Shown in pieces: positions 15,262-31,836 of a stretch of DNA of 35,833 nucleotides; within the stretch, counting starts at the first letter, position 1, and each line of letters starts with the position of its first letter. The position numbers were made by a program, and so were the translations under genes. Source of the DNA: a virus; the IMG/VR virus record IMGVR_UViG_3300045918_000033, positions 1 to 35,833 of that record; one strand, written 5' to 3'. Below the pieces are notes generated by a model. It was not told the DNA's origin. It searched no databases and saw only the letters and a program-made list of their open reading frames with translations.

Positions 15262-15672
15262 ATGGCTGAAGTCGCAACCCTGAGTCTTAGCACTCTTTTA
15301 GTACCAAGCAAAGCAACTACTGTTGACTTTCCTGGTTACCCCGGTTTTGAAGTAGAACTATCATTTCTTTCACGTGAGGAACTAATTAAGATTCGTAAAA
15401 AAGCAACTACAATTAGTTTTAAGAAGCGTCAACCAGTTGAAGAACTAAATGACGAGCTATTTTTGAGCTTGTATTGCCAAGCTACAATTAAGGGCTGGAA
15501 AGGCCTAAAACTTGCTTATGTATCCCAACTTGCTCCTGTTGACCTAACAGGTAAGAACTTAGAAGATACTCTTGGGTTCTCTCAAGAAAATGCTTTATCA
15601 CTAATGAAGAGTTCAGGTGACTTCGATAGTTTCGTAAGTGAAACTGTTGCAGACCTACAAAATTTTCAGTAA
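15262..15672 (+). CDS. Tail assembly chaperone (gpG-like)
   Basis: This 136-residue protein is the short product of a G/G-T pair. It is placed between the tube and tape measure genes, the standard chaperone slot. It carries a SFLSREELIKIRKKATT helix (about residues 35-51) and an NDELFLSLYCQATIKGWKGLK segment (about 61-81) typical of this group. It binds tape measure during tail assembly and is absent from virions in relatives. AAGGA supports the start. The reading frame ends just after a slippery heptamer, so a fraction of ribosomes would make the longer G-T product. Confidence 0.8.
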   Translation: MAEVATLSLSTLLVPSKATTVDFPGYPGFEVELSFLSREELIKIRKKATTISFKKRQPVEELNDELFLSLYCQATIKGWKGLKLAYVSQLAPVDLTGKNLEDTLGFSQENALSLMKSSGDFDSFVSETVADLQNFQ

Positions 15673-16046
15673 GCCAGTGGCAGCTAGTTGAGAAGCAACT
15701 AGACTCATATTTTCAGAACTCAAGCGTAGCAATGACTAAAGAGCAGTACTTAGACATGTGTGAAGTTTTAGGTTCTGAACCTATAGAGGAAGAGATTCCT
15801 GTAGAGTTTAGCGACTTGCCTCTGGATATACAAGAAACCTACTGTATCTATGCTATGATGCAGGATATATGGGAACCAATGTCAGGCTCGTATATTGGTA
15901 AGAATTACTCGGGGCTTTCAGATATTTTAGATATTATGGAGGTCGATGATAAGCGCACTATGTTATTCTTAATTGAAGCAATAGATAGATTTAGGAAAAA
16001 ATCAATAGCGGCGCAACGAGCTAACAATGAAACCCCGCCCGCATAA
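15262..16046 (+). CDS. Tail assembly chaperone G-T fusion (via -1 frameshift)
   Basis: The G frame is read to codon TTT at 15664-15666, then -1 shifting continues from 15666 to the TAA at 16044-16046, giving about 261 residues. The T part contains WQLVEKQLDSYFQNSS, then TKEQYLDMCEVLGSEP and a DILDIMEVDDKRTML helix. An ATG at 15732 begins the same frame but lacks a good Shine-Dalgarno, so the T part is most likely made only as a fusion. G-T links tape measure to tube subunits in lambda. Confidence 0.8.
15660..15702 (+). promoter_or_regulatory. Programmed -1 frameshift site
   Basis: The heptamer A AAT TTT (15660-15666), in the G reading frame, fits the X XXY YYZ slippery pattern. After slipping, the -1 frame reads TCA GTA AGC and stays open through to 16046. 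A 7-bp hairpin (CTAGTTG 15684-15690, CAACTAG 15696-15702) lies 17 bases downstream and may stimulate pausing, though the distance is larger than usual. Confidence 0.8.
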
Positions 16047-16060
16047 GGTGGGGTTTTATT
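16030..16060 (+). terminator. Hairpin overlapping the end of the G-T frame
   Basis: AAACCCCGCC (16030-16039) pairs with GGTGGGGTTT (16047-16056), with one G-T pair and a 7-base loop, followed by TATTTT. The arms bracket the G-T stop codon. The tape measure gene starts 18 bases after the hairpin, so termination must be partial, or it acts as an attenuator. Confidence 0.65.
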
Positions 16061-16077
16061 TTAACTAAAGGAAAATA

Positions 16078-19000
16078 ATGTCTGATGATATAAAAATTGG
16101 CCTTAGTGTAGCTGATTCAGGTGGTTCCGTTAATAAACGTGCTGCTGAAGCTAAAGCACTACGTGAAGAACTAGATAAGGTTACTGCTTCTGCTAATGCT
16201 GCTAGTGCTGCATTAAAGCAAGCAGCCTCGGCTCAATCAGCGGGGAGTACCTATGCTATGGGAGGTTCTCGTACTAGCCAAAAAGCACCTAGTATAGTAA
16301 ATACTGATTCTGAAGGCGAAGAAACAGGATATCGTAGAGCTAGAGGAGTAGCTCAAGCAACAGGTGCAGGTGCTCGTGATTTTGCTAGAGAATCCCAAGG
16401 ACTGGGCGGACTAGTCCATCTGTATGCTACATTTGCAGCTAATATATTTGCGGTTGGCGCAGCTTACGAAATGCTTGATAAAACTTTTTCCGTATCTCGT
16501 ATGGAAAAAGCTACAGATATGCTATCTGGTAAGTTCGGGGTTAACCTAAAACAAGTATCTAATAACCTAGTAGAAGCAACAGGCCATGCTATTAGTTTTC
16601 AAGAGGCTATCCAGTTTACCAATATGGGTACCGCTGCTGGACTAACGGGTAAGCAAATTGAAAACCTAACCGTTATTGCCAAGGGTGCCGCAAATGCTCT
16701 TGGTCGTGATATGAGTGACTCTGTTAGACGTATTGTTCAAGGTACAGCTAAGCAAGAGCAGGAGATTCTAGACGAATTAGGCATCTTTGTTAAGGCTAAG
16801 GATGCTTATGCTGCGTATGCTAAAAAGATAGGTACTACAGCTAATGAGTTATCCGCTACTGAAAAAGTAAAAGCGTATGCGGAAGCTGTAGCATTATCAG
16901 GCGAGAAGTGGAAAGAGTTTGCAGCAATCGAAGACCCATTCTCGAAGTTTCTATCCGCCTCAAAAGAGGCGGGTATTGCCATACTTAAAAACATAGCAGA
17001 ACCTATTAGTAAAGTACTTGGAGTTTTAGCAGATAGTAAGGGCGCTATTGAAGCTTTAATGGTTTTAGTAGTAGCTAAGCTAGCTGGAATGGCTGTGCCA
17101 CACTTGGGAGATAAGTTAAAAAAGGCCTTTGCTGTAGACCCCACTGAAATTGCTTCATTTAATGAGTCTAAGGAAGTTAACCTTAAGAATATTGATAGGG
17201 ATATTCATACTCAAAAAAAGACTCTTAATACTGCTGAAGCTAGTTATGATAAGATTGGGTCACTACAGGATAACATATCTATAAATGGGTTTAATGCTAA
17301 ACGGCTCTCTGCGCGCCTTAATGCTGATGTAGGGGATATAGCTAGAATAGAGGGTACTGATAGTGTCAAAATTAAAGATGCCATACAAAAATCCATAGTT
17401 ACTTCTATAAAAACAGAAGATCAGCTAAATGACGCTATTAATAACAAACTTATTAATAAAACCTCCATTCTTGGTAAAATAGAGGTTAATGGTACTACAG
17501 TTAATAGACTAACTAAGGAAACTCTAGCGTATGCTGAGGCTACTAATAAGGCTTACCAATCCCAAGTACTTGAGCAAGAGAAATTGAAAGCATTAGAGGG
17601 TCATAGAATGTCTATATCTGAAGAAACGCATAAGCGTTCAGATATAAATAACCCCTCTAGAGCCTTTAATAAAGACTTAGTTACAGAGAAAGTTAACCTA
17701 ATTAACCAAGACCTAGGCTCTTCAGGTATTGGAACATGGGAAAAACTAGGTAATACTTTTAGAAACTTAGGTGGAATAGTATCAGAGGCCAAAGGTAACT
17801 TTACTAGTTTGGGGGGCATAGCCTTAAAAACTGGGGCAATTATCCAGATGGTAGGTGTGGCAAGTAGTTTAGCTATAAGAGGCTTACTAGCAGTATTAGG
17901 TCCACTAATGCTAGCTTGGACAGCTTGGGAACTAGTAGGGGCTCGGATAGCTGAATCTTTAGGGTTCTTTGGTAAGGAAGCCTCTGTAGCCTCAGATAGT
18001 GCTAAAATACTAAAAGAGGATGCGGATATACTTACGTCAGCCACTTTAGCCCTTAATAAGGCTGAAGAAGACGCTACTATGACTAAGAAGGGGCTAGCTA
18101 AATACTCCGAGGCGTATGCTTCTGCACTAAATCAGCAAGTAGATGCTACTAGAATGGCTATAAATAAGTCCATCGAGGAAGAGGCCTCCTTTAAAAATAG
18201 GGGCATAGTATACTCTATATGGCGAGCAGCCGTGGCCCAGCTAACCCTAGTATTCAATAAATTGGGCGAAGCTATTAGTTTTGTAGGAGAAGTCGTATCC
18301 TCTAAGTTCTCTAACATAGGCGAGGGTATTAGTACTGCACTATTTAGAGCTAATATTATAATAGATAATAGCCTTCATAAGTTAGGAAGACTAGGAGATA
18401 TCATCCTTAGTATACTTAATGGTGTTCGAGACCTAGGCTCTTTAAGCTCGGACGCCCCTGTTGATAAGAAGGAGGGTAACCTAGATAAAGCTCGTAGACT
18501 CATAGGAGTTACAGACTCAGGTGAATCTCAGGCTAAAATACTATCTAACGAAATAGCTAGCTTACAGGCTATTATAGATGCTAAAGACTCCACAAAAGGT
18601 TTAAAAGCCTACGCGGAGTCCGCGAAGCTGAGTGTACAGAGCAACCTAGCGCTTGTACGCAAGGAGATGGATGCTGCCGCAAAGGGAATAACCTTATCTA
18701 CCTCTACTGATATTCTAAAGTTAGCTCAAGTAGGACACACTACTGCTTTAGCGGTACTAGAGAAGGGGAAGAAAGAATCCGCTGATCTAGCAAGAATAAG
18801 GGAGAAGGATTCACAAGACCCTACAGAAGCTAACTCTAAAGAGTTAGCTATGCGTGAAAAGCTAGCTAAAGGGTTCGAGAGTCTATACCACTTAAGGGTG
18901 TCTAACGAAGAAAAACTACAAGGGTACGCTAGTAGTAATTTAATATCTCAAGAGTTCTCTAAAAAGGCTAAGGTAATAGAGGCGCAGTTTGCTAAGGAGG

Positions 19001-20973
19001 CTTTAACAGCAAAAGGAGACGAACTAGAACTAGCTAAATTACTTAGGGTAGAAAAGCTATCTGAGCTAAAAATACAACAAGCAATTATAGAAGCTACCCA
19101 GCAGTCAAAGAAAGCAGCAATGGATGCCGCAGAGGGTATCCGTAACAAAAAGCTTGCAGTTAGCTCCTCTGGGTTAGATATAGCCTTAGGAAATACTACA
19201 CAGATTGAGCATACTAAACTAGTAAATGAGGAGAAACGTCTAGAACTAACTAGAAAGAGAGCAACAGCAGAGGCTCTAGTGGTATCTTTTAGTAAGTCTG
19301 GTATACTGAGTACAGAAGCGTCTAATAAGCTACTAGAAGCGGATCTAGCCCTTAATATCTTTGACTTAGAAGTACAGAAGGCTGAGGTCCTACGAGACCA
19401 AGTATCTACACGTAATAAGCTCACTAACCAAGCTTTCCTATACTCTGAGTATATGAAAAAGGCTATTGAAGAAGGTGCTACACTTGCTGACTTCACCTCT
19501 TCAGAAGTCAAGGGTGAAGAACTAGTTCTTCAAAAGATGAATCAGCAGTTAGTAACACTGAATACTCTATCTGGAACTGAAAAAGTGTCATTTGCCGAAA
19601 AACTTAAGTTAGAGACTGATCTAGCACTTAAAGATGCTCAGAAACTAGAACGTAAGCGTGTATTACGTAATCTAGAGCAGGAAATAGATAAAATCGGTAC
19701 TACTAAGCTAACTAAAGATCGAGTAATGCCCGTACTAGCAGACGAATCATTCGCCAGATTTGAAGACTTCCGCAATAAAATGCGAGGCGTCATAACAGGC
19801 ACCTTTGATGCAGTTTACAAAGGTATGGATGGTGTGATTGACTCTCTAACTACTAAACTAATGAAGCGTCAACGTATTGACGGAAGAGCCTTAATACGCG
19901 ATTTCGGCAATGCAATGGCCGAAGAGTTTAGGCAAATGGCTGCGGATCGTATGAAGTTATCTCTTCGTACTATGATTACTAACTCTCTAGGAGGTCCTGC
20001 AGCTGATAAAGCTAGGGAAGATAAGCGAGCTGAGGATATAAAGCTTGGAGGTCTTGATCTTAAGAGTATTATAGCAAAAACTGCAGGAGATACCTCCGCT
20101 AAAGCCAAGGAGGGGGCTCTAGGTACAGAGGCTACTACAGATGCGGGTAAAAAGGCTATAGAGGCTGCACGTAAGGGAACAGCTGATGCAGTTAATAGCC
20201 TAACAGACGCCCAGTTAAGTGTATCACTACTAGATAGGATTGCTAAGGCTACAGAAACTACAGCTTCTAGAACTTTAGACCCATCAATTCCTAAGCCAGC
20301 AGCCGTACAAGCAGTTGATAATGCTAGTGCCGTCCAAGTTAATAAAGCAATAGGTCAAGTATCTAAGGATGCTGCAATAGCACCTGGAGTGCTGCCTAGT
20401 ACTGTAGGAACTGGATGGATGGATGCAGGTTCTACTAAGAATAGTATAGGTAACGCAGGTATTGGTGCACTATCAGGACTTTTAATGAGTAAACTAATGG
20501 GCGGTAATAATAAACTTGCTCCTTGGATTTCTGCTATAGGAGGAGGGCTTCTAGGGGGTTTAGGGAACCAACAAGGCGGTATAATGGGAGTCATAGGAAA
20601 GCTATTTGGATTTGAGAATGGTGGGATTATGTCTTCGATGGGCTCTCTACCTCTGAATAAGTATGCTAATGGAGGTATAGCCGCAACACCACAATTAGCC
20701 TTATTTGGGGAGGGTAGAATGAATGAAGCATTTGTTCCATTACCTGATGGTCGTAGCATTCCTGTTAGTATGAAGAGCCCAATAGGTGCAGGTAATAATG
20801 TATCTAATCAGGCGAACCAAGTAACAGTTCATGTTAATCCTACTACAGGAACTTCTAGTACTAATGCTTCCGGTAATGACCCAACTATGATGCAACAGCT
20901 GGGCGCAAGTATAGGTGCAAAAATTCGTGAAGAATTGATGTTCCAAAAACGTCCTGGTGGACTTCTCTACTAG
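16078..20973 (+). CDS. Tail tape measure protein (gpH-like)
   Basis: At 1631 residues, this is by far the largest gene; it sets tail length and in relatives helps DNA entry. It has long Lys/Glu/Ala-rich helical stretches, hydrophobic segments at about 295-341 and 578-631, and a C-terminal region from about 1231 with FDAVYKGMDGVIDSL and MAEEFRQMAADRMKLSLRT, as in lambda-type tape measures. The end is glycine-rich, with FENGGIMSSMG, YANGGIA and LALFGEGRMNEAFVPLPDGR. No lysozyme or peptidase domain is visible. By the lambda rule of about 0.15 nm per residue, the tail would be near 240 nm. AAAGGA precedes the ATG. Confidence 0.95.
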   Translation: MSDDIKIGLSVADSGGSVNKRAAEAKALREELDKVTASANAASAALKQAASAQSAGSTYAMGGSRTSQKAPSIVNTDSEGEETGYRRARGVAQATGAGARDFARESQGLGGLVHLYATFAANIFAVGAAYEMLDKTFSVSRMEKATDMLSGKFGVNLKQVSNNLVEATGHAISFQEAIQFTNMGTAAGLTGKQIENLTVIAKGAANALGRDMSDSVRRIVQGTAKQEQEILDELGIFVKAKDAYAAYAKKIGTTANELSATEKVKAYAEAVALSGEKWKEFAAIEDPFSKFLSASKEAGIAILKNIAEPISKVLGVLADSKGAIEALMVLVVAKLAGMAVPHLGDKLKKAFAVDPTEIASFNESKEVNLKNIDRDIHTQKKTLNTAEASYDKIGSLQDNISINGFNAKRLSARLNADVGDIARIEGTDSVKIKDAIQKSIVTSIKTEDQLNDAINNKLINKTSILGKIEVNGTTVNRLTKETLAYAEATNKAYQSQVLEQEKLKALEGHRMSISEETHKRSDINNPSRAFNKDLVTEKVNLINQDLGSSGIGTWEKLGNTFRNLGGIVSEAKGNFTSLGGIALKTGAIIQMVGVASSLAIRGLLAVLGPLMLAWTAWELVGARIAESLGFFGKEASVASDSAKILKEDADILTSATLALNKAEEDATMTKKGLAKYSEAYASALNQQVDATRMAINKSIEEEASFKNRGIVYSIWRAAVAQLTLVFNKLGEAISFVGEVVSSKFSNIGEGISTALFRANIIIDNSLHKLGRLGDIILSILNGVRDLGSLSSDAPVDKKEGNLDKARRLIGVTDSGESQAKILSNEIASLQAIIDAKDSTKGLKAYAESAKLSVQSNLALVRKEMDAAAKGITLSTSTDILKLAQVGHTTALAVLEKGKKESADLARIREKDSQDPTEANSKELAMREKLAKGFESLYHLRVSNEEKLQGYASSNLISQEFSKKAKVIEAQFAKEALTAKGDELELAKLLRVEKLSELKIQQAIIEATQQSKKAAMDAAEGIRNKKLAVSSSGLDIALGNTTQIEHTKLVNEEKRLELTRKRATAEALVVSFSKSGILSTEASNKLLEADLALNIFDLEVQKAEVLRDQVSTRNKLTNQAFLYSEYMKKAIEEGATLADFTSSEVKGEELVLQKMNQQLVTLNTLSGTEKVSFAEKLKLETDLALKDAQKLERKRVLRNLEQEIDKIGTTKLTKDRVMPVLADESFARFEDFRNKMRGVITGTFDAVYKGMDGVIDSLTTKLMKRQRIDGRALIRDFGNAMAEEFRQMAADRMKLSLRTMITNSLGGPAADKAREDKRAEDIKLGGLDLKSIIAKTAGDTSAKAKEGALGTEATTDAGKKAIEAARKGTADAVNSLTDAQLSVSLLDRIAKATETTASRTLDPSIPKPAAVQAVDNASAVQVNKAIGQVSKDAAIAPGVLPSTVGTGWMDAGSTKNSIGNAGIGALSGLLMSKLMGGNNKLAPWISAIGGGLLGGLGNQQGGIMGVIGKLFGFENGGIMSSMGSLPLNKYANGGIAATPQLALFGEGRMNEAFVPLPDGRSIPVSMKSPIGAGNNVSNQANQVTVHVNPTTGTSSTNASGNDPTMMQQLGASIGAKIREELMFQKRPGGLLY

Positions 20974-20984
20974 GTTGTAGTATC

Positions 20985-21008
20985 GAGTAGCTCGGCAACG
21001 GGCTACTC
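20985..21008 (+). repeat. Hairpin with GNRA tetraloop between tape measure and M
   Basis: GAGTAGCTCG (20985-20994), loop GCAA, CGGGCTACTC (20999-21008): a 10-bp stem with one G-T pair. No T-run follows, so it is probably an RNA processing or stability structure, not a terminator. Confidence 0.65.
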
Positions 21009-21042
21009 CTTAGTACACTAACAATAATAAAGGATAATAAAT

Positions 21043-21405
21043 ATGGCCGCAGTATTTACATGGGTTCCCTCACTAAACTTCCGTAAACAAGTGAAAGCTC
21101 GTAATATTATAGCACAGTTCGGGGAAGGATACGCTCAGCGTACTGCCGAAGGAATTAATACACAAACTAATTCATGGTCCCTTAGTTTTGTAAATCAACC
21201 AATTGACATAGCCAATGCAATTGAGGACTTTCTTAGTACAGCTGGAACTGGTATTGCTACAAATGCGGGTAATGTGTACTTCTTATGGACACCCCCTAAT
21301 AGTAGCGTACAGTACAAGGTTATATGTGATACATGGGATATTGAGGATACTTCTCATATATCCCGTACAATAACTACTACGTTTAATAGGGTATTTGACC
21401 TATAA
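21043..21405 (+). CDS. Minor tail protein M-like
   Basis: This 120-residue protein starts the tail-tip module. It shows the gpM-family pattern: TWVPSLNFRKQVKARNIIAQFGEGYAQRTAEG split over residues 6-37, a central WSLSFVNQP strand, an AIEDFLSTAG helix, and a C-terminal ISRTITTTFNRVFDL. It is close to lambda gpM in length. In relatives it sits at the junction of tube and tip. AAAGGAT lies before the ATG. Confidence 0.85.
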   Translation: MAAVFTWVPSLNFRKQVKARNIIAQFGEGYAQRTAEGINTQTNSWSLSFVNQPIDIANAIEDFLSTAGTGIATNAGNVYFLWTPPNSSVQYKVICDTWDIEDTSHISRTITTTFNRVFDL

Positions 21406-21415
21406 AATTTTATAC

Positions 21416-21444
21416 TTGACTTTTTCTTTTGAGCTTGCTATACT
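21416..21444 (+). promoter_or_regulatory. Promoter for the L-K-I-J tip genes
   Basis: TTGACT (21416-21421), 17-base spacer, TATACT (21439-21444). Its upstream flank is identical over 16 bases to the terL promoter (ATTTTATACTTGACTT). It would drive the tip and fibre genes, giving them supply independent of the capsid promoter. Confidence 0.8.
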
Positions 21445-21472
21445 AGTTCAAATAATCTATTGGTAGTAATAT

Positions 21473-23461
21473 ATGGAAGCCCATAAAAATATATCAGGTG
21501 AGGGAGGAGTAGTAACACCTCAACTACCCTACTATAACCCCCTTACAGTAGGCTATCTGTCTATAAGTACAAGTATAGATACTAACCCTAATCCTAACCC
21601 CGCAATTATACCTGGTAGTACTAATACTCAAGTAAATCCTATAATTAAGGGTGTGTACCAGTCTTTAAACCCTGGTGCTATTGTAGAACTATTCGAACTA
21701 GATACTTCATCTATAGAACCAGCTACTCCAAATGTATATAGATTCCACTCAGGAGTATCTTTAGCTAATACAGAAGTAGTATGGCAGGGTAGAACTTACT
21801 TTAGATACCCGATAGAAAGCTCAGGATACGAGTGGACAGGTAAGGGTCAGTTACCCAGACCTACTTTAAAAGTAGCCAATATTAGCGGATTAGTAAGTGC
21901 TATGAACCGAACTAAGCAAGATTTAGTAGGTGCAAAGATTACTCGTAGGCAAACTTTTTATAAGTATATGGATGAAGTAAATCATTATACTGGTATTAGT
22001 TTAACAAAAATGCCATGGCAAGTAGCAGTAACTATTAGTACAGTATCAGCCTCGCAGGATACAACAGTAGCTACTAATACGATGTTAAGTAGTTTCCCAA
22101 TTAGTAGTACTGATTCTAGTTATTGGGAAACTTTAGTAACTATGGTAGGCTCTGGTATTTATTTAGGTATAGCGTACTCTGGTAATTCTCTTAAGTATGG
22201 AACTACTGGGTACTTAGGTGTAGATACCTTATCCTGGGGGGCCTTATCTTCTGGAACTTTTTGGTATAACGGAGTATCTAGTACACTAGGCTTTACATTT
22301 ACTACGGGGGATACTGTTGGAATACTATATACCCCCAGTACTAATAGCTTAACTTTTTACTTAAATGGTGTACTAGCTAGTGTAAAGACCCTAAATGCGC
22401 CATCCTCTATACAGCGAGCATACCCTGCTATTACTACCTCCACCTCTAGTGCATGTAAAATCGAGTGGGATGCTACTAAAGTTACGTATCCAATAAATCA
22501 TAGTATGTATATGTATAAAATACCTAAACAGGGTGGATTTTATACTAATAACTCCGACAACCTAAGCGCAGCAGACGCACTAATCCCCAAAACTATTAGT
22601 GATTCCACTATAACTCGGGGAACCGGTGCAAGTAGCTGGCTATCTAGGTCTATAGGACCTAAGTTATTTAAAGGTAAGTATTACGTAGAAGTTAGCCTAA
22701 CTGTAGGAGCTAATATGATGGTAGGTATTGCTAATAACCTACTAACTACTGATGCCTCTACGCATTTAAATACTAATGTATGGGTATACGATTTATATAA
22801 CGCAGCTATATATGCTAATGGTGTACCTACTAGTGCAGGGCCCGCAGCTACTTTGGGAGCTAATATAGGCATCGCTATAGATATAGACTTACGTACTATT
22901 AGTTACTATATAAATAGCAGTACTATACCATCAAAAGTGCAAACTTTTATTTTACCAGTAAATGGGTATGTATATCCTATTGTTTCTTGGTTTGATGCCG
23001 CTACATCTATCAAAATAAGATATGGATCAGCGTTTATAGATAATGCCTTTATTAATACTCCGCCTCCAGGTCACCAACCACTGCCTGCTGTTTCTAATCA
23101 AAATATATCTACAGATGTAACTGTAGCCTTGGATGATGAGGTATACTTCATTAATCGTAAAATTAATGAAAATAGGGTACAAGTAGACTACGAGCTATCC
23201 TCATCTTTAGATGTACAAGGTATTAAATTACCCCGCAGACAGGTACTACAGAATATCTGTGCCTGGGCCTATAAAGGTGCAGAGTGCGGGTATACTGGAC
23301 CTGCTGTAGCAGATAACCTAGACCAACCTATTTTTTCACCTGCTACTACTTCTAGTAATAACTTACCAGATAGCTGCAGTAAAACATTAGATGGATGTAA
23401 AATGAGATTTAATGGGCTAATTTTACCATATGGCGGCTTCCCAGGTAGTTCATTAATATGA
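21473..23461 (+). CDS. Minor tail protein L-like with inserted SPRY-type domains
   Basis: At 662 residues, this is almost three times lambda gpL (232). The N-terminal part matches gpL (WQGRTYFRYPIESSGYEWTG, LPRPTLKVANISGLV, DLVGAKITRRQTFYKYMDEV up to about 168). The C-terminal part matches again from about 560, with CAWAYKGAECGYTGPAVAD. Four cysteines, 596, 605, 635 and 642, repeat the 9- and 7-residue spacings of the lambda Fe-S cluster ligands. Between them, about 370 residues form two SPRY-like beta sandwiches (about 175-335 and 355-535; KGKYYVEVSL marks the second). The first 60 residues are an added, Pro/Asn-rich extension. Start support is weak. It ends ATGA with the K gene. Confidence 0.85.
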   Translation: MEAHKNISGEGGVVTPQLPYYNPLTVGYLSISTSIDTNPNPNPAIIPGSTNTQVNPIIKGVYQSLNPGAIVELFELDTSSIEPATPNVYRFHSGVSLANTEVVWQGRTYFRYPIESSGYEWTGKGQLPRPTLKVANISGLVSAMNRTKQDLVGAKITRRQTFYKYMDEVNHYTGISLTKMPWQVAVTISTVSASQDTTVATNTMLSSFPISSTDSSYWETLVTMVGSGIYLGIAYSGNSLKYGTTGYLGVDTLSWGALSSGTFWYNGVSSTLGFTFTTGDTVGILYTPSTNSLTFYLNGVLASVKTLNAPSSIQRAYPAITTSTSSACKIEWDATKVTYPINHSMYMYKIPKQGGFYTNNSDNLSAADALIPKTISDSTITRGTGASSWLSRSIGPKLFKGKYYVEVSLTVGANMMVGIANNLLTTDASTHLNTNVWVYDLYNAAIYANGVPTSAGPAATLGANIGIAIDIDLRTISYYINSSTIPSKVQTFILPVNGYVYPIVSWFDAATSIKIRYGSAFIDNAFINTPPPGHQPLPAVSNQNISTDVTVALDDEVYFINRKINENRVQVDYELSSSLDVQGIKLPRRQVLQNICAWAYKGAECGYTGPAVADNLDQPIFSPATTSSNNLPDSCSKTLDGCKMRFNGLILPYGGFPGSSLI

Positions 23462-24159
23462 TAAGTACTAAGGAGTACTTAAAAGTTTTAGCGCATGCTA
23501 AGGCTGAATACCCAAAAGAATCTTGTGGTGTTATAGTTAGTACAGGAGAGTATATTCCTTGTACTAATATAGCAGGTTCTGATAGCGAATTTATTATAAG
23601 TTATGAGGAACTAGACAGCTTAGGGAAAGAGATACTGAAGTATATACACTCACACCCTACTACAGCTCCCATACCCTCTGAAGCTGATAAGCAAGGTATG
23701 CAGGCTACTGGTGTACCTTGGGGCATAATTAGTCCTAATACAGGAGACTACTTTGAGTATTTACCAGATAATACTATACCTCCTCTAATTGGTAGAGAGT
23801 TTAAGTTTGGGTCTATGGATTGTTACTCAATAGTACGTGATTACTATAAGTTAACGTATAATATAGACTTAATAAATCCTACTAGAGAAGATAGCTTCTG
23901 GGAACTTGGTAAGTCTTACTATATAGACTACTATGAAGCTGCAGGATTTATAAAAGTTATAGACTTAAAAATTGGTGACGTTATATTAATGACAATTGGC
24001 GCAAGTATCCCAAATCATGCAGCCGTGTACTTGGGAGACGAGCGTATGATACACCATATACAAAATAGGTTATCTAGTGAAGATATATACTCAGGGTACT
24101 GGGTTAAACGTACTGTAGGGTACTATAGGCATAAGGATACTATTAATGAAAAAAGTTAA
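23458..24159 (+). CDS. Tail tip peptidase K-like (JAMM plus NlpC/P60)
   Basis: This 233-residue protein combines two domains as in lambda gpK. The N-terminal JAMM/MPN metallopeptidase has Glu21, His64-Ser-His66-Pro, Ser74 and Asp77. The C-terminal NlpC/P60 domain has Cys122 (SMDCYSIVRDYY), His187 (IPNHAAVYLGD) and a His pair further on. NlpC/P60 enzymes cut peptidoglycan peptides, which suits penetration of the cell wall. The start overlaps the L stop (ATGA), so the two are coupled. All key catalytic residues are present. Confidence 0.9.
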   Translation: MISTKEYLKVLAHAKAEYPKESCGVIVSTGEYIPCTNIAGSDSEFIISYEELDSLGKEILKYIHSHPTTAPIPSEADKQGMQATGVPWGIISPNTGDYFEYLPDNTIPPLIGREFKFGSMDCYSIVRDYYKLTYNIDLINPTREDSFWELGKSYYIDYYEAAGFIKVIDLKIGDVILMTIGASIPNHAAVYLGDERMIHHIQNRLSSEDIYSGYWVKRTVGYYRHKDTINEKS

Positions 24160-24757
24160 GCTATATGGGCATTTAGCAAAGGAATTTGGTGAAGAATTCT
24201 CTTTTTTAGCCAAATCCCCTGCAGAAGTTATACAGCTTTTAAATATTAACTTTAGTACTTTTCAGCAGGCTATACTAAACTTCAAAGGGGAAGGATACCT
24301 AGTTAAAGTTGGTATAGATATACTACCACTAGAAGATATACATAAGCCTACTTCTTCCTATGAAACTATCAAAATTATTCCTATAGTTAAAGGAAGTGGT
24401 GGTGGTAAGGGTGGGGGTCTTCTAATGTTAATAGCTGGAGCTGCTCTAATAGCCTTCTCAGGGCCTATAGGAGCAGCTATGGTAGGATCTGAAGTAGGGG
24501 CTACTACACTAGGGTTAACTGCAGGAGCTTGGGGCAGTATAGCCTCTTCTATAGGTATGTCTCTAGTATTATCCGGAGTTTCAATGCTACTATACTCACC
24601 CCCTCCTATACCCTCTAACGCCCAGTCTATTAATTTTGATGGTGCAGTTAATACAATTAAACAAGGGGAATGTGTACCTGTAGGATATGGTAGGTGTATG
24701 GTTGGTTCCGCTGTAATTAGCGCGGGTATTAGTACTCAACTATTTAATGGTATATGA
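24146..24757 (+). CDS. Tail assembly protein I-like
   Basis: The 203-residue protein has a ubiquitin-like N-terminal part (KKVKLYGHLAKEFGEEFSF, about 2-20), then a glycine-rich linker (KGSGGGKGGG), a hydrophobic stretch (about 90-150) and an SINFDGAVNTIKQGECVPVGYG motif near 165-186. This is the plan of lambda gpI, which is needed for tip assembly with J. It overlaps K by 14 bases with AAGGAT upstream, and its TGA overlaps the J start. Confidence 0.85.
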   Translation: MKKVKLYGHLAKEFGEEFSFLAKSPAEVIQLLNINFSTFQQAILNFKGEGYLVKVGIDILPLEDIHKPTSSYETIKIIPIVKGSGGGKGGGLLMLIAGAALIAFSGPIGAAMVGSEVGATTLGLTAGAWGSIASSIGMSLVLSGVSMLLYSPPPIPSNAQSINFDGAVNTIKQGECVPVGYGRCMVGSAVISAGISTQLFNGI

Positions 24758-27700
24758 TGAATAACTGTTTTAATATTAGCTATCCTGGAGTATCAGGGCA
24801 AGGTGGAGGCGGTGGAGGTAAGGGAGGGTCTAGTGGTGGAGGCGTAGAAGCCCCTGATAGCTTATTCTCCCATCAGTATGCTAAAGTTTTAGATGCTATA
24901 TCCGAGGGGGAAATTGTAGGCTTAGTAAATGGATTACAGTCAGTATTTTTAGATGATGTACCTTTAATGAACACTTTAGGGCAGTATAACTATCAAGGAT
25001 TTAGCTTGGCCTTTAGAACCGGCGTACCTAACCAGTCTATTATACAGGGATTTAATGCACAGGAGTCTAGTCAACCTATAAGTACTAGACTTAAGTATGG
25101 TGCACCATTAATTAGGTCAGTACTTTCTAATACAGTTGATAGCGTAACAGTATCTATAGGTATTCCTAATTTAGGTAGTGTAGACTCTAATGGTAATATT
25201 AATAGTACTATTGTATCCTATAGTATAGAGATTAAGCAATCTGGTGGAGCATGGTATCCTGCTAACCTATCTTCTACTAGGTATGTAGTTTATAGCAATA
25301 CTACGGGTATTGCCACTACACCTATAGCTACGTCTATAATAGATGTAACAGCTACTATTGCCCTTGTATCTACATGGAGTAGTACAGGAGTAGCTAATGC
25401 GGCCCCTACTGGAACATTTGTACTAGAGTACGCCCCTATTAGTACCGGAGTATATATACTAGCTGCAAATTTAACACTTAGTCGAACATTACGGCCAAAT
25501 GGGCTAGTTTACGCCTACGATATATCTGTACCTAGTTTTAGTATACCAACTGCTGGGCAATACTTAGTTAGGGTTAGAAATAGTACTACAGGTACAGTGT
25601 ACCCCTGCATAGTTGGGTGCTCTACGGCTTCCTATACATATACTATAAATGGTAAGTGTACAGGTAAATATATATCTGATCACTATATTAGTTTAGCTGG
25701 AATTCCTAACTCAGGATTCCCTGTGGATATTAGAGTTACTAGATTAACACCAGATAGCTTATCTGCAAAGCTTAATAATGAGACTTGGTGGGAAACGTTT
25801 ACTGAAAGAGTAGAAGTTCCTATTAACTATACTAATACTGCAATTGCAGGCCTACAAATAGACGCTAGGTACTTTAGAGGTATTCCTAAAAGGTCATACG
25901 ATTGTAAACTACTAAAAGTAAAAGTACCCAGTAACTACTTTCCTGAGAAACAGATAATAGTATCGGCAGGTCAAACTACACAACAAGCGCTACTGCAAAG
26001 ATACACTAGAAATGCTACTACAGGTGTAGATACAGGAGTTCTACAAGTGTGGGATGGCACATTTTATACCGCTTGGACTGATAACCCCGTTTGGTGTTTT
26101 TATGATATGCTTACAAATACTAGGTATGGCCTAGGTAGTCATATAGCCTATAAGAATATTGGAACTACTAATTTATACAAGATAGCCCAGTACTGTGATG
26201 AACCCGTACAAGATGGGTTTGGTAATTATGAGTCTAGATTTACTTGTAACCTTTATATACAGTCTAGAGGGGATGCTTACCAAGTACTAAATACTATGGC
26301 ATCTGTATTTAGAGCTATGGTATATTGGGATAGTGTAAGGGGTATGACTGCTGTACAGGACGCACCAGGTAGTATTATTGCTCAGTTTACTAATGCTAAT
26401 ATTATTGACGGTACTTTTAACTATACAGGTTCGGCGTCTCAAGCTAGGCATACTACAGCTCTAGTTACTTGGAATGACCCTGCTGAGCACTATAAGCAAA
26501 AAGTCGAATTTGTAGAAAACGCTACAGATGTATCTAGATTTGGTGTTAATCAACTTGATATCCCTGCTATTGGGTGTACCTCAAGAGGGCAAGCACACCG
26601 TATAGGTAAGTGGGCCTTATTTTCAGAATCGTTGGAAACTGAAATAGTACATTTTAAAACTGGCTTCGAAGGCCTAAGTATAAAGCCAGGAGATTTAATC
26701 CGTACAATAGATAGTTTCCGTGCGGGTTTACGATATGGTGGTCGAATAGCTACAGTATACCCTAGTATTGACTTAGCTGTATTCACTGGTATAGGTAGTC
26801 TATCTAATACCTCACTAAATATAGGTATACCCTATGAGCAATTGACCGCGTATATAGATATATATAGTATTGTTACTACTAGCATTACTCTTAGTATAGA
26901 GAGAGTAGGTATACCTCAGAATATCTTTGTTACTCAAGTAATACCTGCGGGAATATGGTCTAGAGTGCAAGTAAGTGGTACTCTAGATAGTAGTACATCT
27001 AGTCCTTTAGTAAAAGTTACCAGCTCTGCTACAACTTCGTTATACTTTGGTAAAGCACAACTAAATAATGGGCTAACAGCTCAGCTTTTTGATACCATAG
27101 GTACAGTAAATAAATTAACTTTTCCGCATATATTAAGTAATACTGCCTGGGTAAAGGTAAATACTGCAATAACTACTACTAATACGGCACAAGTAACTAT
27201 AGATGCACCCATAACCTTAGCTACGGGTACTACGTATACGCTATCTTCCCAGACAGCTATAGGCACTTTAATAGATATGCCCATAGTTAATACAACTATG
27301 GGTAGTACACAAGTTCTACAAACAGCCCCTATGCTAGCACAGTTACCTCAAGAAGGAGCTATTTGGACAGTTACTAGTAGCGTACTAAATCCTGAAACTT
27401 GGCGTATTATGTCTATAGTTGAAGATCAAAAAGGTATCTATGCGGTTACTGCTTTAGAGCATAATACAAGTAAGTACGATGCAATTGAAAAAAACCTACA
27501 ACTACAAGTACTAAATACTTCAGTAATAACTACTGTACCAACACCTGTTACTAATATATTAGTAGTTGGCAGTAAATATACTATATCACCTGGAGTACAA
27601 GGTACTAAAATGAGTATATCCTGGGATAAGTCTCCTACAGCAATTAAGTATATTGTTAGTTATATTGAAAATGCTAATCCACTAATAGAACTACCCCCTA

Positions 27701-27798
27701 CTGCTAATACTTCAATAGAAATACTAAGTGCTGTTGTAGGAGCTACATATACAATTACAGTTACTGCGTATAACGCACTAGGAAAGGCGTCTCCTTGA
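24754..27798 (+). CDS. Central tip protein J, N-terminal part
   Basis: This 1014-residue protein matches lambda gpJ along its length: VRVTRLTPDSLSAKL, TNTAIAGLQIDARYF, VWDGTFYTAWTDNPVWCFYD, TRYGLGSHI, QYCDEPVQDGFG, ALVTWNDPAEHYKQ and GCTSRGQAHRIGKW. Gly-rich repeats open it. Two insertions relative to lambda are seen: residues about 171-296, and a CBM/jelly-roll-like stretch about 682-792. It ends inside or just after a fibronectin type III domain (TYTITVTAYNALGKASP) at a TGA that overlaps the next start, while lambda J continues. The C-terminal part is therefore in the following gene. Role: tip hub and host recognition. Confidence 0.9.
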   Translation: MMNNCFNISYPGVSGQGGGGGGKGGSSGGGVEAPDSLFSHQYAKVLDAISEGEIVGLVNGLQSVFLDDVPLMNTLGQYNYQGFSLAFRTGVPNQSIIQGFNAQESSQPISTRLKYGAPLIRSVLSNTVDSVTVSIGIPNLGSVDSNGNINSTIVSYSIEIKQSGGAWYPANLSSTRYVVYSNTTGIATTPIATSIIDVTATIALVSTWSSTGVANAAPTGTFVLEYAPISTGVYILAANLTLSRTLRPNGLVYAYDISVPSFSIPTAGQYLVRVRNSTTGTVYPCIVGCSTASYTYTINGKCTGKYISDHYISLAGIPNSGFPVDIRVTRLTPDSLSAKLNNETWWETFTERVEVPINYTNTAIAGLQIDARYFRGIPKRSYDCKLLKVKVPSNYFPEKQIIVSAGQTTQQALLQRYTRNATTGVDTGVLQVWDGTFYTAWTDNPVWCFYDMLTNTRYGLGSHIAYKNIGTTNLYKIAQYCDEPVQDGFGNYESRFTCNLYIQSRGDAYQVLNTMASVFRAMVYWDSVRGMTAVQDAPGSIIAQFTNANIIDGTFNYTGSASQARHTTALVTWNDPAEHYKQKVEFVENATDVSRFGVNQLDIPAIGCTSRGQAHRIGKWALFSESLETEIVHFKTGFEGLSIKPGDLIRTIDSFRAGLRYGGRIATVYPSIDLAVFTGIGSLSNTSLNIGIPYEQLTAYIDIYSIVTTSITLSIERVGIPQNIFVTQVIPAGIWSRVQVSGTLDSSTSSPLVKVTSSATTSLYFGKAQLNNGLTAQLFDTIGTVNKLTFPHILSNTAWVKVNTAITTTNTAQVTIDAPITLATGTTYTLSSQTAIGTLIDMPIVNTTMGSTQVLQTAPMLAQLPQEGAIWTVTSSVLNPETWRIMSIVEDQKGIYAVTALEHNTSKYDAIEKNLQLQVLNTSVITTVPTPVTNILVVGSKYTISPGVQGTKMSISWDKSPTAIKYIVSYIENANPLIELPPTANTSIEILSAVVGATYTITVTAYNALGKASP

Positions 27799-29984
27799 CA
27801 ACTATAAATTTTACATTTGTATTAACTCCTAGTACTCCTGCAGATGTTACTAATTTTAATATAGCCATAGTTGGATCTGCAGCTACTTTAAGCTGGGACC
27901 CTGTATTAGGGGACCCTGACTTAAGCCACTATGTTATACGATATTCTTCGGATTTAGTAACCCCTCTATGGAATAATAGTAGCATATTAATACCTAGTAT
28001 TCCCGCTAAGTCAGGAAGTGCTATAGTAGTTTCCTTAGTAGGGTCTTACCTTATTAAAGCAGTAGACTTACAGGGGTATGAAAGTAATAATGCCTCTATA
28101 ATTAGTACTACTATAGCAATACTAGATACTATTAATGTGATATCTACACATAATGAAACAGCTTTACTAGGAGCTAAAGTTAATTGTGGTGTTGGGGCAG
28201 GTATTTTGTATACCCAAGGAAACTCCGCGAGAGCTTGGAGTACTATGAGTGACGTAGTTAATATGGCTTATGGTAGTACTAATAGCTTACTTGGTATTAC
28301 TGATAAAGACCCTTTACATACAGTAGCTAGTGATGGTACGGTGACTTTGGCTAGCCTATCAGGTTGGCGTACTTTTAGAGCCCCCGTAGGGATATCTAGA
28401 GGTAAATGGTACTGGGAAATATACTGCTCCTCGAATGATATATCAGCTAACTATGCGGCATACCAAATGGTAGGGGTATCTGAAGCAGCCCTTAATGTAG
28501 GGTACCCTAGTTTGGGTAGTAATCCTGGTCCAGCACATATGTATTATGGTGCTACAGGACTATCCTATGGTAATGGTAGTACTGGACAAGCGTTACTTGG
28601 GGGGGTTTCACGTCCTTGGGCGGTACTTAACACGGGGCCATACACTTTAGGTATTGCTTTTAATGCTGATATTGGGTTAGTAGAGTACTACTTGAATAAT
28701 GAGTACCAAGGGGCTATTCCTACTAACTTACCTAGGAATAGCCTAGTATTTCCTACAGTATCTCAGTATGCTGGTTGGGCAGGTGTTACACAGTCTGCAT
28801 TATTTAACTTTGGTAGTACAGCATATAAGTTTACACCACCTATAGGGTATTTAAGCCTTACTAATGGAGTAATGCCTAAAGCTTATTACTACTTTAGAGG
28901 AATACAAGATACTAAAATAACTACTGATACCTCTCCTAGTATATTACTAACTAATAATGGTTTAACTATTCAAACAGCAACTACTACACCTAATTCATGG
29001 CATAGTGCTAGAGCTAATATTGGGGTATCTAAGGGTAAATGGTATTGGGAAGTAAGTGTAACTCAGAATTGTTTACTAGGTATTTCTCAAGCTTCCCATG
29101 TACTTACTAATTACTGCGGATCGGGTATTACAGGGTATAGCTGGAGACCTAGTATTGGGCAACGATATAATAATGGGGTAGCTACTACTACAACAGGATA
29201 CCCATCTAAAGACTTAAGATGGTTAATAGGGGTATGTTTAGACTTAGATACTAATGTGTTAATATTTTACTATGATGGAATGTATATCACTGAGGCAGCC
29301 ATAGCGAGTGGTACCTACTACCCTACTTTATCAGTATATAATAGTGTAGCTAATGTACCTACGGATGATGCTAGGTTTAACTTTGGGGCAAATGGATTTA
29401 TGTTTAATCCACCTGAGGGGTTTGAACCTTTAGTACTCCCTACTATTGACCTAGGAGTTAATACTACATCTAGAACTATTACAGATATTAGTTATACTCC
29501 ACATAATATTCTTAATCTAGCAGTTGGTTGGAGTAATATGGCTAGTATAAGTGAGTTCTCAGGTACTGCAGCAGCAGATGCCTCTGCATTAATAGAGGTC
29601 TCTACTTCTCTAGACACATTTACTTGGGCTCCCTGGGCCCCTTTAGTAGCAGCTAGTTTTACTACTAGATACTATAAGCTACGAGTAAAACTACTAAGTA
29701 CGCATAGTATTGATACACCCCTAGTATCTCTTATTAATGCAGTAATTGATATGCCAGATGTAACTCAAGCTGGTAATAATATAGCTTCCTCAAGTACTAT
29801 AGATACTACTTGTGTTTATAGCTTTCATGAAGTTCCTGCTATTGCTATAGCTGGGCAAAATATGGCTACAGGGGATTACTACTCTATAACTAGTAAAACA
29901 TCTAGCGGATTTACCGTTAATTTCTATAATTCCAGTAATATACGTATTTCACGTATATTTGACTGGGTAGCTAAAGGATACTAA
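27795..29984 (+). CDS. Central tip protein J, C-terminal part (FN3 plus SPRY-type domains)
   Basis: This 729-residue gene starts at a TTG that overlaps the preceding stop (TTGA), with AGGAAAGG at 27780-27787 in a good position. Residues 1-105 form a fibronectin type III domain continuing directly from the previous protein. Two SPRY-like domains follow (about 180-356 and 387-546), each marked by GKWYWE and ending FNFG...PP.G. The last 170 residues end IRISRIFDWVAKGY, as C-termini of many J proteins do. It appears to be the natural C-terminal half of J, split off by a -1 frame difference. Role: receptor binding, by inference. Confidence 0.8.
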   Translation: MTTINFTFVLTPSTPADVTNFNIAIVGSAATLSWDPVLGDPDLSHYVIRYSSDLVTPLWNNSSILIPSIPAKSGSAIVVSLVGSYLIKAVDLQGYESNNASIISTTIAILDTINVISTHNETALLGAKVNCGVGAGILYTQGNSARAWSTMSDVVNMAYGSTNSLLGITDKDPLHTVASDGTVTLASLSGWRTFRAPVGISRGKWYWEIYCSSNDISANYAAYQMVGVSEAALNVGYPSLGSNPGPAHMYYGATGLSYGNGSTGQALLGGVSRPWAVLNTGPYTLGIAFNADIGLVEYYLNNEYQGAIPTNLPRNSLVFPTVSQYAGWAGVTQSALFNFGSTAYKFTPPIGYLSLTNGVMPKAYYYFRGIQDTKITTDTSPSILLTNNGLTIQTATTTPNSWHSARANIGVSKGKWYWEVSVTQNCLLGISQASHVLTNYCGSGITGYSWRPSIGQRYNNGVATTTTGYPSKDLRWLIGVCLDLDTNVLIFYYDGMYITEAAIASGTYYPTLSVYNSVANVPTDDARFNFGANGFMFNPPEGFEPLVLPTIDLGVNTTSRTITDISYTPHNILNLAVGWSNMASISEFSGTAAADASALIEVSTSLDTFTWAPWAPLVAASFTTRYYKLRVKLLSTHSIDTPLVSLINAVIDMPDVTQAGNNIASSSTIDTTCVYSFHEVPAIAIAGQNMATGDYYSITSKTSSGFTVNFYNSSNIRISRIFDWVAKGY

Positions 29985-31567: not shown

Positions 31568-31836
31568 TGAACTGGAAACTTTCGCAAGACGGATTATCGG
31601 CTTATCGCACACTGGGCAACGGTTGCGTGGAGTCGCGCATGGTTCATGCCATTGATGTTGATGAGTTGGTAAGTGCATTACCTGCAGATATTATCATTCC
31701 AGACTATCGCGAACAACGTGCAGCAGAGTACCCACCAATGACTGATTATCTTGATGCGATTGTTAAAGGCGATCTGGCGCAACAGCAAGCCTACATCGAC
31801 AAGTGTTTGGCTGTAAAATCTAAATATCCAAAATGA
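31567..31836 (+). CDS. Small tail-fibre-associated protein, 89 residues
   Basis: I do not know its function. It starts at TAATG from the fibre gene. Its second half, DYREQRAAEYPPMTDYLDAI and on to VKSKYPK, resembles short domains at the ends of phage fibre or fibre-assembly proteins (the EYPP...D.LDA pattern). It could be a fibre chaperone or tip piece. Its end overlaps the following gene (ATGA). Base composition is clearly different from the genes before 30.5 kb. Confidence 0.55.
   Translation: MNWKLSQDGLSAYRTLGNGCVESRMVHAIDVDELVSALPADIIIPDYREQRAAEYPPMTDYLDAIVKGDLAQQQAYIDKCLAVKSKYPK

Follow-up and report, generated by a model that had tools for sequence, protein, structure and literature searches.

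Predicted tandem SPRY domains in the HDI loop of a phage gpL homologue, at a site of recurrent insertion

So far, gpL has been regarded as an invariant component of lambda-type tail tips. In a viral DNA of 35,833 nucleotides (IMG/VR record IMGVR_UViG_3300045918_000033, positions 1 to 35,833; hereafter the window), one open reading frame (ORF) carries both parts of gpL with a long additional sequence between them, which raises the questions of whether the insertion is genuine, what was inserted, and what such a module might do at the tail tip. A first-pass annotation, made from the sequence alone, had proposed that about 370 residues with two SPRY-like domains interrupt gpL and would be displayed around the tip. 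Here, we followed up this proposal by profile searches, structure prediction, and comparison with other gpL proteins.

The ORF matches Phage_tail_L (PF05100) in two stretches, and its HDI and C-terminal parts are both significant by Pfam and by separate N- and C-part HMMs (Table 1). With phmmer, the two flanks match the solved lambda gpL chain (8iyk_L) over residues 71-179 and 568-656 (2.5e-34), and also match the F2-pyocin hub. All four Fe-S cysteines are kept (4/4): C596, C605, C635, and C642 align with C173, C182, C205, and C212 of lambda gpL, which hold the cluster in that protein (PMC10721106). These results (Pfam 3.7e-56, the 8iyk_L flank alignment, and the four cysteines) bear out the earlier view that the N-terminal part and the Fe-S cysteine part are preserved, and its placement of gpL at the tail tip agrees with the lambda structures, in which gpL HDI and gpJ HDII build the last tail ring (PMC10721106). 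The gene order M-L-K-I-J is present around the ORF, although the gpI match itself is weak, and the tail-fibre-like genes after gpJ include PHROG_12796. The N-terminal extension is rich in Asn, Pro, and Thr and its start codon is uncertain; a GTG codon in the same frame is found close to where gpL usually begins, and the first internal Met is residue 144.

Table 1. Coordinates of the gpL locus and of compared genes. Positions refer to the window unless another locus is named.
Feature	Position	Strand	Evidence or remark
gpM (distal tail protein) homologue, upstream of gpL	21043..21405	+	Pfam Phage_min_tail 6.2e-24
gpL homologue with predicted tandem SPRY insert, 662 aa	21473..23461	+	Pfam PF05100 3.7e-56; PHROG_18 7.9e-82
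gpL N-terminal extension, 57 residues, missing in most gpL	21473..21643	+	Alignment
gpL HDI, first part, residues 58-174	21644..21994	+	N-part HMM match stops at G174
gpL insert, residues 175-543, 369 aa	21995..23101	+	No counterpart in six aligned insert-free gpL, one of them lambda; 369 residues between the N and C HMM matches
gpL SPRY domain 1 (predicted fold)	22031..22525	+	Pfam 35.5 bits; AlphaFold2 core pLDDT above 90; Foldseek ASH2L SPRY 2.8e-8, probability 1.00
gpL SPRY domain 2 (by sequence)	22592..23071	+	Pfam 36.9 bits; phmmer HERC1 SPRY 6e-4, RyR SPRY 2.4e-3
gpL HDI remainder and [4Fe-4S] domain, residues 544-662	23102..23458	+	Alignment to lambda gpL
gpL Fe-S Cys codons	23258, 23285, 23375, 23396	+	Cys list
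gpK homologue (JAB + NlpC/P60)	23458..24159	+	Pfam
gpI-like, weak match	24146..24757	+	Lambda_tail_I by Pfam, 0.035 (under the cut-off); position in the order K-I-J
gpJ, first ORF of split gene, with hub domains and a terminal FNIII	24754..27798	+	PHROG_31 1.8e-207
gpJ, second ORF, FN3 + two SPRY + conserved C-terminus	27795..29984	+	Overlaps first ORF at TTGA
gpJ second ORF, first SPRY	28323..28847	+	Sub-threshold by Pfam alone, 19.9 bits
gpJ second ORF, second SPRY	28950..29420	+	Pfam 33.4 bits
gpL with large non-SPRY insert	5780-7051 of L294		
gpL of Cys-rich-insert clade	5145-6434 of L020		

To locate the insert, we aligned the ORF with five phage gpLs and lambda gpL. In an ordinary gpL, the two residues that border the insert are direct neighbours; insert-free relatives run continuously through this junction (...DAVNF..G/NP.ADP..., the slash marking the site), and the gap between the N-side and C-side profiles holds 369 extra residues here versus 0-1 in most relatives. 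The large insert that the first-pass annotation placed at 21980-23095 (residues 170-541) does lie there, but its ends are a few residues off, the aligned limits being residues 175-543 (21995-23101). The contig is metagenomic and a single-sequence AlphaFold2 prediction of the whole gpL was uninformative (pLDDT 29), both of which would leave room for an assembly chimera or for an ordinary gpL domain that had been misread. However, the insert has the same GC content (0.379), GC3, and codon usage as its flanks, and the same gpL ORF occurs in a second contig, IMGVR_UViG_3300045825_000093, with zero base differences over window positions 15473-29458. The identity of the second contig extends to window position 31608, after which the two sequences part in the fibre region; therefore, the two contigs most likely represent different strains with the same gpL, which argues against chimeric assembly. 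From the identical gene in the second contig and the matching composition we ruled out a chimera, and with the predicted SPRY fold of domain 1 (see below), an artefact of either kind is extremely improbable. The divergence of the two contigs downstream of gpJ, from 31608 onward, is a typical mosaic boundary. Close relatives of the insert are scarce: a search among 50,697 phage records gave one weak match only, and in IMG/VR the near-identical contig was the sole close relative found.

The identity of the inserted sequence was examined at the levels of sequence and predicted structure. Pfam reports SPRY (PF00622) in two stretches of the gpL ORF (1.2e-17), and a six-frame search located two matches inside gpL above the cut-off of 26.3, at 22121-22465 (35.5 bits) and 22676-22990 (36.9 bits), so that the two SPRY-like domains suspected from the letters alone are confirmed by the HMM. 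Phmmer alone links the insert to SPRY chains of HERC1, RyR, SPSB3, and RanBP9, and a profile built from 98 SPRY domains of viruses, those of gpL included, retrieved the SPRY structures of RanBP10, ASH2L, and RyR at 1e-22 to 1e-26. The AlphaFold2 model of residues 175-365, built from a 98-row alignment, is all beta strands (pLDDT 75.8, core above 90). The top Foldseek matches of this model against the PDB are all SPRY domains, led by ASH2L (2.8e-8), RyR SPRY2 (3.3e-8), and RanBP10 (4.5e-8), each with a probability of 1.00 and a TM-score of about 0.6. Hence the predicted structure of the first domain is the SPRY beta-sandwich and no unrelated fold, as had been anticipated, while the second domain is assigned as SPRY by its sequence. 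The structural matches (RanBP10, ASH2L, and RyR) are eukaryotic proteins, and the likeness is one of fold.

Is this insertion peculiar to one phage? We measured the HDI junction in 259 distinct gpLs, drawn from phages, prophages, and viral contigs. Of these, 38 have over 8 extra residues there and the other 221 have 8 or fewer; since these proteins were sampled by similarity, among the matches listed, 38/259 is not a frequency. The loop ranges from 0 to 369 residues across the sampled gpLs, the maximum being that of the present phage, and the inserts differ in kind: about 24 residues in two groups (those of L050 and L421), 51-122 Cys-rich residues (L382, L397, L399, L020, and others), 176-192 non-SPRY residues (L294, L297-L305, and L377), 251 residues (L321 and L343), and 353 residues made of one repeated module (L308). 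Surveys with PF05100 in 399 and 369 genomes added a single large-insert gpL for the HDI site, that of L294. In a tree of the gpL core, the inserted gpLs lie on several separate branches, with L377 beside the insert-free L060 and L321 beside the insert-free Bcep176 (support 1.00 each), and with L308 and L305 nested among insert-free relatives. Inserts were gained at the HDI loop several times; the deeper nodes of the tree are poorly supported, and we therefore claim several gains without giving a number.

The inserts of 176-353 residues gave no Pfam match, but carry a closing motif of the type Q.E.G....T.Y.PT and look like phage jelly-roll binding modules, as far as their sequences indicate. 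Among the matches listed, no inserted gpL other than that of the present phage matched the SPRY profile, and no other SPRY-bearing gpL was found among the more than 300 gpL loci or the 262 SPRY loci listed. Thus, a gpL with an insert is not unique, given that unrelated modules of 24-353 residues recur at the same loop elsewhere, whereas the SPRY content of the insert appears to be found only here within the set of sequences searched. The more general result is that the gpL HDI loop is an insertion hot spot, and since unrelated domains occupy it in other phages, the loop looks like a socket for host-binding modules.

Several further observations concern the sampled gpLs. Those with Cys-rich inserts (L020, L399, L397, and L382) form a clade, and two of them (L020 and L397) have further inserted sequence in the Fe-S domain or the C-terminal part. 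Extra inserts of roughly 150-250 residues are present in the Fe-S domain loop or near the C-terminus of L062, L067, L083, L050, and L079, and L068 also has an insert in one of these places. These Fe-S and C-terminal inserts make a second hot spot, placed comparably to the oligosaccharide-binding domain of R4C and RcGTA. Silvergun (L008, 972-1463) and Bcep176 (L010, 445-1452) have an additional 'tail fiber' gene between M and L, which in Silvergun gives a weak Laminin_G_3 match.

The present phage carries a second tandem of SPRY domains in gpJ. The gpJ gene is split into two ORFs, and the tandem (28200-29450) lies in the second, between an FN3 domain and the conserved C-terminal domain. The flanks of this region are about 430 residues apart, versus 34 to about 90 in the relatives compared (Pelagibacter phage HTVC202P, Rhizobium phage RHph_Y3_1, and viral contigs), in which gpJ is one ORF; thus, in this phage two tip proteins have each acquired a SPRY pair. 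The split, at the TTGA overlap (27795-27798), has no obvious slippery site, and the cultured relatives have a single ORF; it is present in the second contig too and is therefore not a lone sequencing error. We considered whether the gpJ pair had recently been copied into gpL and found no support for it, as the four domains are as distant from one another as from other SPRY domains. A clade of three has a support of 0.86 and very long branches, and the four are too divergent to tell whether one pair begot the other.

What could the SPRY pair do on gpL? Our preferred reading is that this is a decorated gpL, the SPRY pair of which probably serves as an accessory host-surface binder at the tail tip; we infer its outward display, its binding, the type of ligand, and its role in adsorption. 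The HDI domain, which resembles tail-tube proteins, and the Fe-S domain would still form the hub ring under gpM, while the HDI surface loop would carry the tandem. With three copies of gpL, six SPRY domains would surround the tip cone at its base, and another six would lie below them on gpJ. An insert of 369 residues per subunit is too big for the 3-nm lumen, and outward display is therefore the only comfortable reading. The domains most likely bind the host surface multivalently, through many contacts that are each fairly weak, to capsule, LPS, some other glycan, or possibly a surface protein, and these contacts would keep the tail tip close to the envelope until the fibres or the main receptor-binding part of gpJ take hold.

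In eukaryotes, the SPRY domains whose function is known have mostly protein or peptide ligands; a glycan ligand is thus an extrapolation, and for the same reason the main rival is that the pair docks onto or braces another virion protein (a side fibre, gpJ, or gpM), organising the tip without host contact. The second SPRY pair in gpJ and the tail-fibre-like genes that follow it (PHROG_12796) would be in line with such docking. However, the occurrence of unrelated domain types in the same loop elsewhere fits changing external targets better than one internal contact, and the large majority of gpLs work insert-free, so we consider docking unlikely. Alternatively, the HDI loop, which spans 0 to 369 residues, might merely tolerate length, in which case the insert would be near-neutral and have no present role. 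This is quite improbable, as the insert is in frame and stop-free with the SPRY pattern kept in both domains, is identical in two strains, and has a counterpart in gpJ, which also received a SPRY pair. Returning to the decorated gpL, we also lean, on balance, towards a broader reading in which the HDI loop is a general plug-in site of lambda-type tips where unrelated binding modules, be they a SPRY pair, single or tandem jelly-roll-like modules, or Cys-rich ones, have repeatedly been inserted at one residue position and tune host adsorption, with matching SPRY tandems on gpL and gpJ in the present phage.

Open-access full text yielded no description of SPRY within gpL, nor of the HDI loop as a place of insertion, in keeping with the first-pass statement that no described gpL with SPRY insertions was known. 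Decoration of tail-tip proteins is already known, as is a sugar-binding domain inside the Fe-S domain of a gpL-type hub (R4C and RcGTA); what appears to be new is the HDI-loop socket and the SPRY module in gpL, the idea being familiar from other tail proteins. The finding also gives a bacterial-virus setting to SPRY, a fold familiar mainly from immunity and signalling in eukaryotes. Should one gpL loop commonly serve as a socket for adhesion modules, many phages annotated by gpJ and fibres alone would hold further host-range determinants, readable from sequence and testable insert by insert.

The locus can be compared with several known systems. Lambda gpL (PF05100; 8iyk chain L) has the same HDI and Fe-S domains, the four cysteines, and the gene order M-L-K-I-J, but has neither the 57-residue N-terminal extension nor an insert, residues 175-543 falling between its VNG and NSYADP segments. 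The gpLs of L294, L297-L305, L308, and L377 keep the gpL scaffold and carry inserts of similar size at the same junction, though these are unrelated to SPRY by HMM search. SPRY domains occur on tail proteins elsewhere (PMC7824862; Xanthomonas phage DoCa8; Methylophilales phage MEP301 gp16), at the end of or within fibres, whereas here they lie inside the hub protein gpL. Viral SPRY recurs in tail-fibre-like ORFs (at least 288 ORFs in at least 262 loci), DoCa8 has one at the C-terminus of a gpJ-like protein, and the SPRY/LamG domains on jumbo-phage tail fibres have been called lectins (PMC7824862). RcGTA g13 and the R4C hub (PMC7296036, PMC10276861) are gpL-type hubs with an Fe-S cluster and a sugar-binding domain, and three of the 21 proposed sugar sites of the RcGTA tail lie in this hub (PMC7296036). 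Their oligosaccharide-binding domain, related to a T4 hub domain, sits inside the Fe-S (ion-binding) domain, whereas by alignment the present insert is upstream of the Fe-S domain, in the HDI loop. The evolved Dit and Tal proteins of Gram-positive siphophages (PMC7291167, PMC10688798, PMC6669499) likewise have a lectin-like module, set into a loop of a ring protein of the tail tip. The best precedent is the evolved Dit, whose loops hold CBM modules that attach to host sugars (PMC7291167); when such inserts were transferred to phages without them, adsorption to EPS-covered lactococci was restored (PMC10688798). The decorated gpL would work in the same way if its SPRY pair binds the host. In those phages the carrier is the Dit galectin or Tal and the module a BppA-type CBM, whereas here the carrier is gpL HDI in a lambda-type tip and the module SPRY; since the carrier is neither Dit nor Tal, the decorated gpL is an analogue of evolved Dit and Tal and not a member of that group.
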